The notes under the pieces were generated by a model. The model was not told the origin of the DNA, made no database searches, and was given only the letters and a program-made list of their open reading frames with translations. Below are positions 18,348 through 63,115 of a stretch of DNA of 64,000 nucleotides, piece by piece (positions within the stretch are counted from its first letter, which is position 1; the number at the start of each line of letters is the position of its first letter). Made by a program: the position numbers and the translations under genes. This DNA comes from Pseudomonadota bacterium (GTDB taxonomy: Bacteria; Pseudomonadota; Alphaproteobacteria; Acetobacterales; Acetobacteraceae): positions 1 through 64,000 of the forward strand of contig JAJZFA010000043.1 in NCBI GenBank assembly GCA_021805565.1, in the 5' to 3' direction.

Positions 18348-20348
18348 TTAGCCGCTGAGTGCCGTATTGTCCAGTATCGCGACCTTAAGCCGGGGTGCGC
18401 CGGGCCCGAGGTCGAAAGTGGACTGGGCGATCGCCAGTGCCGTCCCGCTCTCGCGCCAGCCGTGCTCTTCCAGGCCGGCGCGCCGCAGTCCGTCGGCATA
18501 GCGGGCGATATCGGCGGGGCAGGTGAAAGGCGAACGTAACAGCGCTTCTTGCACCGAAAATCCTGGCTCCAGCTCCAGCAACCGCCGCAGTACTTCCTGC
18601 GCCTCTCGGTCGCGGCCTTTCAGACCAAGAGCTGAAAGGTAGCATTTATAGGACGAGGAAAACAACGGGTTGATCTCGGTTGCACGTCGTCCGGCCTCGA
18701 CCGCGTTGGCATAATCGCCCAGCAGCAGGTGCGCGATTGTCAGCGCCTGATCGAAGAAAAAAACATGCGGATCCGAAGGCGACAGCCGGATTGCCTGCAA
18801 GATACGTTTCAGTCCCTCCTCGTGACGTCCTGAATACACGCAGGCGAGGCCGGAAAAACACCACGCGATCGCCAGGTTGGGATTGAGTGCGATCGCCCGG
18901 TCATGCAGGGCGGTGGCCTCTTCCGGGTGCCTGCCCAAAAAGCCGCGCACATGCCCCGCCAATGTCAGCGCGCGCGCATCCCCTGGGTCCAGTGTCACCG
19001 CGCGTTCTGCTAGCCGGATTGCTTCGGCCGACGATTCCGCGGGGTCGGGTGACCAGCCTTGCCCAACATAAAGCAGATTCCAGTAGGCCAGCCATCCATG
19101 CGCCAGGGAACTGGCGGGATCGGATCGCAACGACGCTTCCAAAAGCGTCCGTGCGTCTGAAAAGCTGGCGCGTTCGAGCCGATAGATCGCCGGCAGCGCC
19201 TGTAGCAGCAGGTCCTGAGCGGTCATGTCGCTCAGCTGCGTGCTGGCGGCTCGCCGGCCTTCGTGCTTCATCAACTCAGGATCGACCTGCGCGACGATCG
19301 CCGCCGCCAACTCGTCTTGCATCGATAACGGATCATCGATCGGACGATCGAACCGTCCGGCCCACACAATTTCGCCATCCGTGCGCAAATCGATCAGACG
19401 GACGATAATACGGACCCGTCCTGGCCCGTATTGGATCGTGCCATCCAGAACCATATCCGCTTCTGGCGCCGGCGGGGTATCGCCATGAGCCGCGGCCGGA
19501 TTAGTCGGGCCCGGCGATAGCATGTCGGGCACGCAGGTAATCCAGCGGAAACGCGAAAGCCCGGCATAGATTTCCGATGCGAGCCCAAGGGCCAGACCAT
19601 CGCCTTTGTCCATGCCGATCGCGCGTAACGCTGCCACACGCAGGCGTAAGGCCGGCTTGTCCCGCCGCGGCGCGGCGACCGCCGCTGCGGGGCTGGCCGG
19701 TTCTGGCGGGAAGAGCTGAGCGGGCGCTGTCTGCGCCGAAGGCTTGCCCGCCGAGGCTTGCATCCGGATTCGGCCGATCAGATCCTCGGTCTCGGGCGAC
19801 GGCCGCGTATCCGCGCTTTCCGCCAGAACGCGCCGACAACGCTCATATGAAGACTCTGCCGCGCCATGGTCGCCGCGTTCCGCGTGGCCGCGCATGATCG
19901 CCCGCCAGGCGGCCTCGTGGGTCCGGTCTAGAGCGAGCAATTTCTCGGCGGCCTCGATTGCGGTCGCCGGGCCGTCGCTTTTCGCCAACAGGCCTTCGCC
20001 GATCGTCCGCCCGATCCGCCTGAAGCGGGATCGTTCGTCATCCAGCCAGCGATCGAAGGCGGGATCGAGGCCGTTGAGATCCTCCAGTAACGGATATTCG
20101 AATCGGTCGAAAAATTGGGGTGAAATCGCGACCGGCTGCGCCATGATGAGGGCGTCGATCTCCAGCCCGGCGCCCCGCAGCGATAACTGGTGCCGGTCGG
20201 CAAAGAACAGATGACCCCAGGTGGGGCCCAGTGTGTCCTGAAGTTCGTGGACGCTTTGCCGCAATGAACCGCGCGCTTGTTCCCGTTCCCGCCGGCTCCA
20301 GAGCAGATTGGCCAGGTGCTGCCGCAGAACTGGCTTCGGGCTCGCCAT
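18348..20348 (-). CDS. BTAD-domain regulator with TPR array (N-terminus uncertain)
   Basis: 666 residues from ATG 20348. A BTAD-type alpha-helical repeat (about 1-170, starting inside the winged helix at HLANLLWSRREREQARGSLR) is followed by an adenylate-cyclase-associated beta region (MVLDGTIQYGPGRVRIIVRL, residues 300-370) and six or more TPR repeats to the C-terminus (ALTLAGHVRGFLGRHPEEAT and others). The frame stays open upstream to 20540 and encodes the missing first half of the DNA-binding domain (LRLRLFGHLAVDD, FLPRTRKARALLAIL), but no ATG, GTG or TTG exists there. Either a start codon has been lost, a frameshift separates it from an upstream ATG, or a non-standard start is used. Targets are unknown; the divergent YeiH gene is one candidate. 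Confidence 0.8.
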   Translation of the reverse strand: MASPKPVLRQHLANLLWSRREREQARGSLRQSVHELQDTLGPTWGHLFFADRHQLSLRGAGLEIDALIMAQPVAISPQFFDRFEYPLLEDLNGLDPAFDRWLDDERSRFRRIGRTIGEGLLAKSDGPATAIEAAEKLLALDRTHEAAWRAIMRGHAERGDHGAAESSYERCRRVLAESADTRPSPETEDLIGRIRMQASAGKPSAQTAPAQLFPPEPASPAAAVAAPRRDKPALRLRVAALRAIGMDKGDGLALGLASEIYAGLSRFRWITCVPDMLSPGPTNPAAAHGDTPPAPEADMVLDGTIQYGPGRVRIIVRLIDLRTDGEIVWAGRFDRPIDDPLSMQDELAAAIVAQVDPELMKHEGRRAASTQLSDMTAQDLLLQALPAIYRLERASFSDARTLLEASLRSDPASSLAHGWLAYWNLLYVGQGWSPDPAESSAEAIRLAERAVTLDPGDARALTLAGHVRGFLGRHPEEATALHDRAIALNPNLAIAWCFSGLACVYSGRHEEGLKRILQAIRLSPSDPHVFFFDQALTIAHLLLGDYANAVEAGRRATEINPLFSSSYKCYLSALGLKGRDREAQEVLRRLLELEPGFSVQEALLRSPFTCPADIARYADGLRRAGLEEHGWRESGTALAIAQSTFDLGPGAPRLKVAILDNTALSG

Positions 20349-21976: not shown

Positions 21977-22165
21977 CTGCCTGTCAACGGGATAAGTATG
22001 TCTCGAGACCTGGAGCTTCTGTCCTCCGCCGTAAGTGCGAAGAAGATACGATCTCAAGGTCCGTGTGTATTCAGTCAAAATTATCGGGTTACACTGACCA
22101 GGGCAACCTGCCCCCGGCGCTGTCCGGTTCCCGTTGGCGTGTTTTATCGAACAAGGGAAATTCCA

Positions 22166-22438
22166 ATGTTGTTTTGTGCCAATAGCGCGCTCGCTCTCGT
22201 TACCCCTGCATCCACCGCCGATACCGGCAAGATCGTTCTGGGCGGCGGCTGCCGCGTGCCGGTCAAGACCGCCGACACCGGCAAGATCGTTCTGGGTGGC
22301 GGTTGCCGCCTGCCGGTCAAGACGGCCGACACCGGCAAGATCGTTCTGGGTGGCGGTTGCCGCCTGCCGGTCAAGACGGCCGATACCGGCAAGATCGTTC
22401 TGGGCGGCGGTTGCCGCCTGCCGGTTAAAGCCGGCTGA
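22166..22438 (+). CDS. repeat peptide with four 18-residue Cys-containing units
   Basis: 90-residue protein: a 16-residue head (MLFCANSALALVTPAS), four tandem 18-residue units of the type TADTGKIVLGGGCRLPVK, and the tail AG. Each unit has one Cys following three Gly, one Asp and basic residues at set positions. Among the four 54-base units seven positions vary, six synonymously (the exception being Val/Leu at unit residue 15), which argues for translation and purifying selection. AAGGGAA lies eight bases before the ATG. I do not recognise the family. A multicore ribosomal-peptide precursor or a metal-binding repeat protein are possibilities. No known peptide-modifying enzyme is adjacent. Confidence 0.75.
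   Translation: MLFCANSALALVTPASTADTGKIVLGGGCRVPVKTADTGKIVLGGGCRLPVKTADTGKIVLGGGCRLPVKTADTGKIVLGGGCRLPVKAG
22214..22429 (+). repeat. four tandem 54-bp in-frame repeats
   Basis: Units 22214-22267, 22268-22321, 22322-22375 and 22376-22429 abut exactly. Units 2 and 3 differ at a single base; units 1 and 4 are the most divergent. Copy number could change by slippage or recombination without breaking the reading frame. Confidence 0.95.
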
Positions 22439-22765: not shown

Positions 22766-23569
22766 ATGTCCGGTCTTCAGGATACGCTCGTTCGCTTTCA
22801 TCGACTAACCAGCCGGGGCCGGGCGCCGATGCGTGCCGAACGATCCGCGATGGGAACGCTGCCGGTGCGGGCCGTCCGCTATTGCGAGGCGTTGACCAGC
22901 GCGACGGCTTTCGGTTGGTGGCTGTTTCCGCCGATCGATCTGGAGGTATTGTGGGATGGCAGCGATGTCTTCTGGCGTTGCGATGAGGCGCCGGACTGGA
23001 TGCCGCTGCAAACCGCGGCGCAGTTGCCCGGCTACAGCGATGAATTCGACCGGTTCGCGCCTGCCGCGTTGAAGGGGTGCTCGCCCCCGTTCCTGACCGC
23101 GCTTCCAGAGCCGGGAACCCTGCAGATATGGACAGGGCTGATCGCCCAGACGGCGCCTGACTGGCACCTTTTGGTTCGCGCACCGGTCAATTTGCCGCAG
23201 ACTGGCGGAATTTGTCTTTTTGAGGGGATCGTCGAAACGGACCGCTGGTTTGGACCGCTTTTCACGAACCTGCGGTTCACCCGTAGCCACATGCCAATTC
23301 GCCTGCGATCCGACTACCCGCTGATCCAAGTCCAACCCGTGCCTCGCGCCATATACAGCAACGACACGCTCGGTCGCATGGACGCCGGGTCGGAGCTGGC
23401 CGATCTGACCGCCGCCGATTGGAACGCTTACGATGCCGCGATTGCCGAACCGAACAGCCGTCCGAACCGCGCTTTCGGTGCTTACGCGACAGCCGCACGG
23501 AAAAAGCGGCATCAATGTCCGGTCCACCTCGATGCGGGCGACGCGGCCGATAGAGGGGGTACGATATGA
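22766..23569 (+). CDS. DUF6065-like protein of unknown function
   Basis: 267-residue soluble protein without signal peptide or membrane segment. Segments such as CEALTSATAFGWWLFPPIDL (about residues 33-52) and LFTNLRFTRSHMPIRLRSDY (about 159-178), plus LIQVQPVPRAIY, fit a family I recall as DUF6065 (proteins that begin with a leucine-rich NANA-H-GWE type region). That assignment is tentative. It has no catalytic signature I can name. Position is informative: downstream of the repeat peptide and overlapping the next gene by four bases (ATGA). AAGG precedes the ATG at a usable distance. Confidence 0.6.
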   Translation: MSGLQDTLVRFHRLTSRGRAPMRAERSAMGTLPVRAVRYCEALTSATAFGWWLFPPIDLEVLWDGSDVFWRCDEAPDWMPLQTAAQLPGYSDEFDRFAPAALKGCSPPFLTALPEPGTLQIWTGLIAQTAPDWHLLVRAPVNLPQTGGICLFEGIVETDRWFGPLFTNLRFTRSHMPIRLRSDYPLIQVQPVPRAIYSNDTLGRMDAGSELADLTAADWNAYDAAIAEPNSRPNRAFGAYATAARKKRHQCPVHLDAGDAADRGGTI

Positions 23570-23778
23570 CGCGCGCTCGTGCCCTGGAACTCGTCGCCTC
23601 GCTTTTTGGACTGACCGGCATGTATCTGGGGTCTTCCACGCCATCCGGCGCCTTATGCTATGCGGTGGCCATCCCGTGCCTGATTGGCTGCATGGCGATC
23701 CGGCGGGTATGGGGGCTGCTGCCGCTGAACGTCGCACAAGCCGTTGTCATAGCGATCAATCTTATTCGTGCGCTTTAA
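23566..23778 (+). CDS. small membrane protein, about three helices
   Basis: 70-residue hydrophobic protein with three likely membrane helices (about residues 9-25, 28-45 and 50-68). It resembles the short PnuC/YgjV-like single-unit membrane proteins in general character only. The start overlaps the preceding stop as ATGA, so it is almost certainly co-translated with the DUF6065-like protein. It may anchor or export something for that locus; this is inference from context. Confidence 0.65.
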   Translation: MTRARALELVASLFGLTGMYLGSSTPSGALCYAVAIPCLIGCMAIRRVWGLLPLNVAQAVVIAINLIRAL

Positions 23779-23863: not shown

Positions 23864-24334
23864 TCAGATCGGCACAAGGCGCATGCACCCGGACCGGCGG
23901 CCAGCGCCAAACAGAAACGCGACAAGCTGACCGGCCAGCGGAAAGCCGCTGGTGCGTGCGACCGAGGTCATGCCGCACAAATCCTGTAATGCGTCGGCCG
24001 CGCCCATCAGGACCGGGTCGCCATTCGTGAGCAACATCGTGGGCAGATCGCGGTTATACCGGGCAATGATCTTCATGACGTGAAAGCCGTCCTGTTCATC
24101 GCCTTCCATGTCGGTAATCACCGCCATCGGGTTATGCGATTGCAAAACCAGCCGGAGATCGGCCGATGCCGATGCCATTTCCATCCGCAGCTCCAGAAAT
24201 TCGCAAACCGGTGCGAGCTTTTCGATGGTGCATGGATCGTCGCTGACAATAAGGACGATGCCTTGGTCCGCGGCAGTCATGCTGCCCGGAAAGTTCAAAT
24301 CCCGGCTCAGTATGCTGGATGACATCATATTCAT
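23864..24334 (-). CDS. receiver-domain-like protein (degenerate CheY fold)
   Basis: 156-residue single-domain protein. It shows response-regulator spacing: acidic VLIVSDDP near residues 26-33, a putative phospho-acceptor in AVITDMEGDEQDGFHVMKII (about 70-89), then PTMLLTNGD. The switch region reads MTSVARTSGFP, without the usual KPF lysine, so classical phosphorylation may be lost or altered. No output domain or cognate kinase is nearby. It faces the small membrane protein gene; 23779-23863 between them is empty. Confidence 0.65.
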   Translation of the reverse strand: MNMMSSSILSRDLNFPGSMTAADQGIVLIVSDDPCTIEKLAPVCEFLELRMEMASASADLRLVLQSHNPMAVITDMEGDEQDGFHVMKIIARYNRDLPTMLLTNGDPVLMGAADALQDLCGMTSVARTSGFPLAGQLVAFLFGAGRRSGCMRLVPI

Positions 24335-61949: not shown

Positions 61950-63115
61950 CCTTCCAGCAGATGCCCAAAGGCGCGTAGCGGCCGTAGATCGTCGCAGACA
62001 ATCTTGGTGATCGCCAGCAGCGGCACGGCCAGGATCGCGCCCGGAATCCCCCACATCCAGTACCAGAAAATCAGCGCTAGGATCAGCGCTACCGGATTCA
62101 AGGTGAAGCGCCGGGCCAATAGCATGGGGGTGACGAACTCGCCTTCGATCAGGTGGATGCCGAAATACAGCCCGACCGGCAGAACCGCCCACCAGGTGAC
62201 ACCCAGCGACAGCACGCTCACCAACAGGAAGATAACGACCCCGGCCATCGCGCCCAGGATCGGGACGAAGTTCAGCACAAGGGCGACCGCACCCCACAGC
62301 ACGGGGTTGGCGACGCCGCATGCCCACATCGCGCAGCCCGTGGCGATGCCCACCACCGCGTTGATGCACGACACCGTCACCAAATAGGCCGATACATCGC
62401 GTTCGATATGCAGCGACAACTCGACGGCCTGACGCTTGTCGCGGAAGCGCGGCAGGATTTCCACCATGCGGCGCAGAAAGGTTTCGCCGGAAACCAGCAG
62501 GTAGAACAGCACCAGCAAAGTCGATAAAATGCCGGACGTGACGGTCGCCGAACTGGACAATACAGCGCCGACCATGCTCATCGGCCGGATCGCCGGTCCC
62601 GCGGCCGCGGGTTCGGCATCGCCGGTCAGGCCCTCGACCTGTTTCAGCATGTGCTGCATCGCGTCGATGGGCGCGTGCAGGAAGCCGAGACCGTCCTTCA
62701 GTTTCGCGAACGCTTCCGGCAATTTGCCCGCCCATGCGGCGGCGGGACCGGCCAACAGGCTGATGGTGCCCCCGAAGGCCGCCAGCACCAGCAGCACCGA
62801 AAGCAAGGCGCCGATGCCGCGCGGTATGCGAATATCTTCTAGCAAACGGACCAGCGGTTGCAGCAGCAGCTTCAGGACGATGGCAAGCACCACGGGCAAT
62901 ACGATTTCGGCGGCGACATACAGCACGGCCATGAAGGCGATCAGGAACAGGCCGCCCAGGAAGATCGTTTTAGGATCGGACGGCAACGGCATCTCGTCGG
63001 CTTCCTCGGCGGCGGGACGGAAGGTTTTCTTCTCCGTCACCGAACCGGAGGTTTGCTCGCGGGTGATGTCGTCCTTGGTTTCGCTCACCGCGACGAATTC
63101 CTGACGGGTTTCCAT
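61946..63115 (-). CDS. AI-2E family transporter (UPF0118)
   Basis: 389-residue membrane protein. A 45-residue polar N-terminus precedes paired helices (about 50-130) and the conserved C-terminal bundle (VSCINAVVGIATGCAMWACG, ALVLNFVPILGAMAGVVIFL, FGIHLIEGEFVTPMLL). Members act as Na+/H+ exchangers or small-molecule exporters; the TqsA link to AI-2 is not general. ATG 63115 gives METRQEF. Stops inside the dispersed repeat. Confidence 0.9.
   Translation of the reverse strand: METRQEFVAVSETKDDITREQTSGSVTEKKTFRPAAEEADEMPLPSDPKTIFLGGLFLIAFMAVLYVAAEIVLPVVLAIVLKLLLQPLVRLLEDIRIPRGIGALLSVLLVLAAFGGTISLLAGPAAAWAGKLPEAFAKLKDGLGFLHAPIDAMQHMLKQVEGLTGDAEPAAAGPAIRPMSMVGAVLSSSATVTSGILSTLLVLFYLLVSGETFLRRMVEILPRFRDKRQAVELSLHIERDVSAYLVTVSCINAVVGIATGCAMWACGVANPVLWGAVALVLNFVPILGAMAGVVIFLLVSVLSLGVTWWAVLPVGLYFGIHLIEGEFVTPMLLARRFTLNPVALILALIFWYWMWGIPGAILAVPLLAITKIVCDDLRPLRAFGHLLEG

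Follow-up and report, generated by a model that had tools for sequence, protein, structure and literature searches.

Multicore precursors are known among the ribosomally synthesized and post-translationally modified peptides (RiPPs), including cyanobactins, graspetides and similar groups, and in many RiPP enzymes the recognition element is a PqqD-like domain. Maturation can also involve TldD/E, which is described as removing the leader of the RiPP microcin B17 (PMC5810440). Here we describe a repeat-peptide gene from a 64,000-nucleotide stretch of DNA of an Acetobacteraceae bacterium (contig JAJZFA010000043.1 of assembly GCA_021805565.1, positions 1 to 64,000; hereafter the window), together with the DUF6065 (PF19541) gene that follows it. 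The repeat peptide is not an orphan, as it forms a conserved pair with DUF6065. With moderate confidence, we interpret it as a RiPP-like multicore precursor whose units are most likely matured by this dedicated partner, a protein with a predicted dUTPase-like fold.

The repeat-peptide gene (22166-22438, + strand) is open throughout and encodes 90 amino acids, with a probable ribosome-binding site, AAGGGA, read from the sequence at 22153-22158 (+), 7 bases ahead of the ATG. A 16-residue head (MLFCANSALALVTPAS; 22166-22213, +), which resembles the starts of the relatives L041-L045, is followed by four abutting units of 54 bp and 18 residues spanning 22214-22429, all on the + strand: unit 1 (TADTGKIVLGGGCRVPVK; 22214-22267) and units 2, 3 and 4 (TADTGKIVLGGGCRLPVK in each; 22268-22321, 22322-22375 and 22376-22429). 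Ala-Gly and the stop codon complete the frame. Tandem Repeats Finder reported the array at 22214-22425 with a period of 54, 3.9 copies, 95% matches and a score of 368, the sole other row in the window scoring 57. The start at 22166 is backed by close relatives, whose peptides begin in the same way (MLFC..., MLVY..., MLIS..., MQYC...), and a longer in-frame open reading frame (ORF) from 21998 is probably not used. The four units vary at 7 of 54 positions, six of them synonymous and one a Val/Leu exchange (RVPVK in unit 1); under random changes in the unit, the probability of at least six synonymous positions in seven is 0.003-0.007. The first-pass annotation, made from the sequence of the window, had described this head-and-unit architecture, the start codon and the counts of variable and synonymous positions; architecture and counts were exact on recheck, and the start agrees with the relatives.

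Downstream from the repeat-peptide gene, the paired DUF6065 gene (22766-23569, +) encodes a protein that matches PF19541 with an E-value of 3.6e-16 and passes its gathering score (59.8 bits vs a cut-off of 26.6); 60/60 aligned relatives (alignment A2) match the same family at E 0.01 or better. For the analysis of the pair, the best 80 of 238 DUF6065 relatives in a species-level genome collection were kept, mostly from Acetobacteraceae and neighbours, and 77 of these loci were scanned for units upstream (at least 150 nt of upstream sequence required; three dropped as too short). Most of the 28 DUF6065 loci read first carried a unit-bearing short ORF upstream, and in paired loci this ORF contains one to many units D-x-G-[KR]-[IV]-x-L-G-G.... 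The unit pattern was found within 900 nt upstream of DUF6065 at 60/77 loci, a count that is not blind, since the regular expression was written after the first relatives had been inspected. The control regions matter for this reason, and in these the same expression gave 0/77 matches antisense, 0/71 downstream and 0/59 further upstream, by which a chance pattern was rejected. Seven more loci with units missed by the pattern (L051, L052, L067, L077, L116, L119 and L120) were added by eye, giving 67/77; these additions carry no control, and that at L120 is a single weak unit. A recognised unit was missing at 10/77 loci (L058, L062, L080, L092, L097, L102, L107, L108, L109 and L111), of which L080, L107 and L109 have less than 215 nt upstream.

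The pair is not a rarity. A DUF6065 match was present in 52/150 genomes sampled from the same family and in all 33 genomes of the genus of the window, of which 26 have more than one; a protein search found unit-like sequence in 30 of these 33. Querying the window's own genome with the peptide brought up another array, on contig C29, in which 14 complete units (ADASKVRMGGFAPTLAT type) precede a further DUF6065 gene. This array lies at about 61980-62736 (G000:C29), and arrays of this AP type, there and in relatives, reach 19 counted units; their unit numbers are lower bounds, because such arrays break assemblies. Among the unit matches of the genus on contigs without DUF6065, 12 were fetched and 12/12 run into a contig end, which would be expected of arrays that interrupt the assembly. 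Homologues bearing the unit in related genomes, proposed earlier as a check, were therefore found, with unit numbers from 1 to at least 19. Cultured carriers of the pair include Rhodopila globiformis DSM 161, Acidisphaera sp. S103, Elioraea tepidiphila DSM 17972 and Sneathiella glossodoripedis JCM 23214. Separately, a locus titled Solirubrobacterales (Actinomycetota; L117) bears an Acetobacteraceae-like pair with tldD, and its bin is probably mislabelled or chimeric. Locus L105 (the same place as L030) holds a diverged pair with units ADPNTVRIGAGLKGLP, a DUF6065 match that passes an in-frame stop near its end and, by eye, an MFS-like gene downstream.

Unit conservation was analyzed in 74 peptides, each counted once, numbering the unit from its first Asp (position 0); the unit-finding pattern itself constrains positions 0, 2, 3, 4, 6, 7 and 8, only +1, +5 and +9 onward being free. 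Position 0 is nearly always Asp, +2 is Gly in 88%, +3 is Lys or Arg in 97%, +4 is Ile or Val and +5 is Arg in 72%. The most variable position is +10, the Cys of the window, which differs in 86% of between-peptide and in 2% of within-array comparisons. We defined positions 7-11 as the core and compared it strictly in the 41 arrays (of 74) with at least two complete units that fit the pattern. It was identical in every unit of 35/41 arrays, and three of the six exceptions exchange Lys, Arg and Asn for one another at the final position of the core. Where the part that precedes the core varies (n = 33), the core was identical in 27 arrays, in 26 of which its codons differ. Within arrays, array-weighted nonsynonymous (pN) and synonymous (pS) differences were 0.019 and 0.380 for the core and 0.153 and 0.339 for the preceding part; between arrays, pN reached 0.379 in the core and 0.357 in the preceding part. 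Recent duplication or gene conversion would lower pS too, and within-array pS is not low. A looser pattern retrieved 52 arrays, reduced to 48 by removing by hand four double-counted single-unit peptides (L063, L124, L125 and L127), with false second matches in L069, L098 and L100 also taken out by hand, and gave a single core in 39/48. The arrays share descent, and these counts are not independent events.

Between lineages the core changes readily. The closest relatives of the window's DUF6065 (76-83% identity) are accompanied by the cores GGGIR (L041), GGASR (L042), GAGYR, GGGFR and GGGYR (L045), vs GGGCR in the window. Units of the window (RLP) type and of the AP type found on C29 cluster on the DUF6065 tree, with 14 label changes against a shuffled mean of 28.8 and 0/200 shuffles as low, and neither type forms one clean clade by that test. 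Selection thus tends to hold the core constant within a precursor while leaving it free to diverge from one lineage to the next, as would be seen for a multicore precursor that yields one defined product. The earlier proposal that the peptide sequence is selected is borne out by the mostly silent core changes within arrays, together with the genus-wide occurrence of DUF6065 and unit-like sequence, and of the readings offered with it the multicore precursor is the best.

The second of those readings, a Cys-rich metal- or thiol-binding repeat, drew on the single Cys in each unit, which holds inside the window array but not across the 74 peptides. Cys also occurs nearby in L051, L052, L053, L070, L076, L079 and L090; the window's Cys position itself is taken by Ile, Ser, Tyr or Phe in the closest relatives, with Ile in the sister species, and by Trp, Ala or Met in others. 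With no conserved Cys per unit, we rejected this function, and a Cys-based core, for the family and regard it as extremely unlikely for the window peptide.

The fold of the partner was examined with AlphaFold, run with an alignment of 60 sequences. The window protein was modelled with a predicted local distance difference test (pLDDT) of 89.9, a predicted template modelling score (pTM) of 0.82 and a helical C-terminus. All 50 matches listed by Foldseek against the Protein Data Bank carry titles of dUTPases or dUTPase complexes (best E 9.0e-6), and a structural aligner (VIA) gave Z 11.9 for the first two rows, over 121 and 127 residues with root-mean-square deviations of 4.7 and 5.0. In a viral library the best matches were unnamed phage proteins, followed by dUTPases. 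A weak profile alignment (hhalign) runs in register with the dUTPase motifs; in this tentative alignment, the catalytic Asp of dUTPases faces Glu157 (Glu in 58/60 sequences) and the Ser of motif 2 faces a residue that is Ala in 48/60. No Gly-rich, motif-V-like C-terminal arm was detected in any of the 60 sequences, and Cys40, Arg138, Asn142 and Asp159 are identical in all of them. The genome encodes a separate, real dUTPase elsewhere. DUF6065 thus reads as a dUTPase-like fold put to other use, in which catalytic motifs and C-terminal arm would not have been kept.

Further links to RiPPs come from distant relatives and from the surroundings of the arrays. The DUF6065 protein of L147 continues into a C-terminal PqqD domain (E 1.5e-8, above the cut-off), with three small MKKPYVPPM... 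genes upstream and an ABC transporter (ATPase and membrane parts) downstream; in L244, of the same genus, the C-terminus looks alike, the scanned stretch ending before that part. As an observation in its own right, L234:7199-10318 and the small ORFs upstream of it (G239) comprise three MKKPYVPPM... peptide genes, a DUF6065-PqqD fusion and an ABC transporter; the peptides have 37, 37 and 52 amino acids, the last ending in 15 prolines, and constitute a candidate RiPP cluster of their own. A tldD gene lies directly upstream, on the same strand, of AP-type many-unit arrays in 12/12 fetched contig ends that contain the 5' part of the array, and tldD is upstream also at L008, L098/L214, L213/L215, L222, L224, L113 and L117. 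A genetically encoded precursor with a core under selection, as is asked of a RiPP, was found.

In the mechanism that we propose, each unit would combine a conserved recognition or spacer part, D-x-G-[KR]-[IV]-x-[LF], with a lineage-specific core, in the window G-G-G-C-R and probably L-P, and all units of one precursor would give the same short product. DUF6065 would be dedicated to this peptide, binding the unit and most likely modifying or processing it, in a RiPP-like maturation. The units would be cut apart and released from the array by a housekeeping protease, for which TldD/E is a candidate, given tldD beside many-unit arrays. A transcriptional regulator with BTAD and TPR parts (BTAD-TPR), found beside most pairs, probably controls the cluster.

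Several results weigh against this interpretation. More than one core is present in 9/48 arrays of the looser count, clearly different ones in L081, L113 and L118, which the strict pattern had omitted, and 33/74 peptides have a single unit by pattern, so that repetition of the unit is not essential. DUF6065 is unlike any known RiPP enzyme, and the PqqD fusion sits in a distant DUF6065 subfamily in which unit arrays were not noticed, with no PqqD domain detected by Pfam in the window protein. Sequence profiles do not join DUF6065 and the dUTPase family PF00692 (hhalign E 0.21, probability 0.3%), and proof of homology by profile comparison failed. In an AlphaFold model of a peptide-DUF6065 read-through the peptide part is disordered (pLDDT about 30-40), which is weak evidence, because the model is a monomer and the peptide would meet a trimer. 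Regarding TldD/E, tldD does not adjoin the window pair, none was detected by tblastn in the Elioraea loci, and the gene is the only tldD of the genome (of the two family matches, one was taken as tldD and the other as tldE); being a single genomic copy, its place may be plain synteny, and the evidence is modest. Finally, no exporter gene is constant among the neighbours.

Neighbouring genes were counted in 41 fully flanked loci, with about 5 kb on both sides. Upstream of the pair, the BTAD-TPR regulator, identified by Pfam (18348-20348, - strand; open frame to about 20540), is the recurrent neighbour, with a relative in 31/41 loci, one of them a weak match (L120, 28% identical). As the genome has only five BTAD matches in 4.49 Mb, this frequency appears far above chance. 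A YeiH-like membrane protein (PF03601; 20730-21839, +) is a neighbour in part of the lineage (11/41 loci), as is a receiver-domain-like protein (23864-24334, -; PF00072 E 1.3e-6, just under the cut-off; 15/41 loci). An ORF of 70 amino acids (23566-23778, +) lies over the DUF6065 stop, and the four-base overlap suggests coupled translation. The first-pass annotation had suggested looking for conserved co-occurrence of the peptide with both downstream genes, which holds for DUF6065 and fails for this small ORF, with relatives in 3/41 loci. Its remark that no standard modifying enzyme is adjacent is true, as no known RiPP class-defining enzyme was found among the window neighbours (Pfam, partly NCBIfam) or the recurrent neighbours (clustering), but the first downstream gene is a closely paired partner. 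An MFS-type gene follows DUF6065 in the C29 locus of the same genome and in Rhizobium. A terminase large subunit gene is downstream of DUF6065 in 18/96 loci (L007, L055, L061, L067 and L121-L134, about +1.5 to +5.3 kb from DUF6065), 17/18 of them with a portal gene, and in the neighbour comparison a terminase stood beside the pair in 15/16 viral-collection loci; terminase and portal are thus a recurrent prophage- or gene-transfer-agent-like neighbour of the locus.

These data also bear on other functions for the pair. The main rival holds that the array stays intact inside the cell as a multivalent scaffold or ligand, whose units bind the sites of a DUF6065 oligomer and gather or regulate DUF6065, with neither cutting nor modification. 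The close pairing, the missing constant exporter and a unit number of 1 to at least 19, as expected for valency, would all suit such a role, and since dUTPases are trimers, a dUTPase-like trimer would offer three equal sites. However, a motif that a conserved partner reads would be expected to stay the same across species, and the variation of the core between close relatives with 76-83% identical DUF6065 speaks against it, albeit not decisively; we consider the scaffold unlikely. Another use of the dUTPase likeness would be an arm supplied in trans, the unit substituting the missing Gly-rich motif V and completing a dUTPase-like active site. That a motif-V-like stretch occurs in 0/60 sequences and the modelled C-terminus is helical agrees with this, and the unit D....R-[LM]-G-G-[GF] recalls the dUTPase end L-D-x-T-A-R-G-A-G-G-F-G-S-T-G, but the resemblance is short, the aromatic position is unconstrained (C, A, I, S or W), the Sneathiella cores GNMSPAF do not fit and no docking was seen in the read-through model, all of which makes it very improbable.

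The recurrent regulator raises the alternative that released units are a peptide pheromone read by BTAD-TPR, with DUF6065 involved in production. TPR-type peptide receptors are known in Firmicutes, the window regulator does contain TPR repeats, its relatives stand beside the pair far more often than the five BTAD matches of the window's genome would suggest, and one core within lineages with different cores between them is in keeping with a signal. However, BTAD regulators often control pathways without responding to a peptide ligand, no route of secretion or uptake was identified, and the fully flanked loci of Elioraea, Sneathiella and Rhodopila globiformis have no such neighbour, so that we find a pheromone rather improbable. 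The multicore precursor matured by DUF6065 remains our preferred interpretation, and a bolder version of it, an undescribed class of ribosomal peptides in Alphaproteobacteria with a dUTPase-fold maturase and a lineage-specific peptide perceived by the neighbouring BTAD-TPR regulator, is a doubtful prospect to which we assign a low likelihood; it would amount to peptide-based communication among Gram-negative bacteria, through a maturase whose fold is new to the making of peptides.

Other origins were sought and rejected. An RNA element is not supported by Rfam, with three matches only (E 0.16-1) far below gathering scores. A known RiPP or lasso precursor was rejected because the NCBIfam matches of the peptides and those to Porphobil_deamC and phrog_14967, with 0 stretches passing alone, were taken as repeat artefacts, and the hit on the J25 lasso model by the C29 peptide (E 5e-5) was treated likewise. 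PADLOC models for anti-phage defence matched neither the peptide nor DUF6065; the BTAD-TPR protein matched one PADLOC TPR model at 1.7e-5. As for phage origin, no phage record matched, despite the terminase beside viral-collection loci.

Outside the close relatives, PF19541 was found in 19/299 genomes sampled from the phylum and in 27/248 genomes of one other family, most of these being classical members of PF19541 without unit arrays. Similar pairs occur there as well. On a plasmid of Rhizobium sp. WSM4643, a peptide of 83 residues carries three F-x-D-[DA]-G-x-V-H-I-A-N-K-S-P-x-F units and ends 16 bases ahead of its DUF6065 gene. The other family has four paired loci (L254-L257), with three units D-x-[GA]-K-V-R-[ILM]-G-T-[ML]-S-P-x-[FL] in L254 and L255 and two to three units with GKVQLGDAAPAF or similar in L256 and L257. 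Among the 67 paired loci above, that of Sneathiella glossodoripedis carries five or more units with V-x-L-G-N-M-S-P-[AV]-F, and another belongs to a Burkholderiaceae metagenome-assembled genome. Roughly, the units have [KR]-[IV]-x-[LIMF]-[GA] in common, although the first position has exceptions. Separately, on a Sinorhizobium medicae plasmid (L266:3439-6720) a classical DUF6065 gene begins 9 bases after an autotransporter gene, the passenger part of which ends in a long proline run.

No paper naming DUF6065 or PF19541 was found in a literature search with subscription journals largely outside its reach, searches linking dUTPases with RiPPs or precursor peptides returned one unrelated paper, and others showed nothing on this pair in titles and the openings of abstracts. 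This Pfam family, for which the searched literature has no paper, gains a closely paired peptide, a predicted fold and a role that can be tested. Modification of the units by DUF6065 would bring the dUTPase fold into peptide biosynthesis; if the product is a signal, there would be peptide communication in a group for which acyl-homoserine lactones are the textbook answer.

Compared with described systems, the partner belongs to the same Pfam family as the classical PF19541 members (Sinorhizobium, Caulobacter and others; profile comparison, E 8.5e-16), but these, unlike the window pair, have a unit array upstream in 0/28 loci examined. Trimeric dUTPases (PF00692) share the predicted fold of DUF6065 and possess the catalytic set and motif V, which by the tentative alignment and a motif scan DUF6065 lacks. 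With TldD/TldE-matured peptides such as microcin B17, the AP-type many-unit arrays share the tldD gene immediately upstream, whereas the thiazole/oxazole enzymes of microcin B17-like systems were not recognised beside the tldD of the arrays. The multicore RiPPs differ from the pair in its partner, which has a predicted dUTPase-like fold with no known RiPP enzyme in the neighbourhood and is, as far as the literature was searched, unprecedented for multicore precursors. They are alike in the small gene, the repeated units, the constant recognition part and the adjacent partner gene, and in a core that is largely uniform within each precursor but differs between lineages; PqqD, for its part, occurs fused to a distantly related DUF6065 and not in the window protein.
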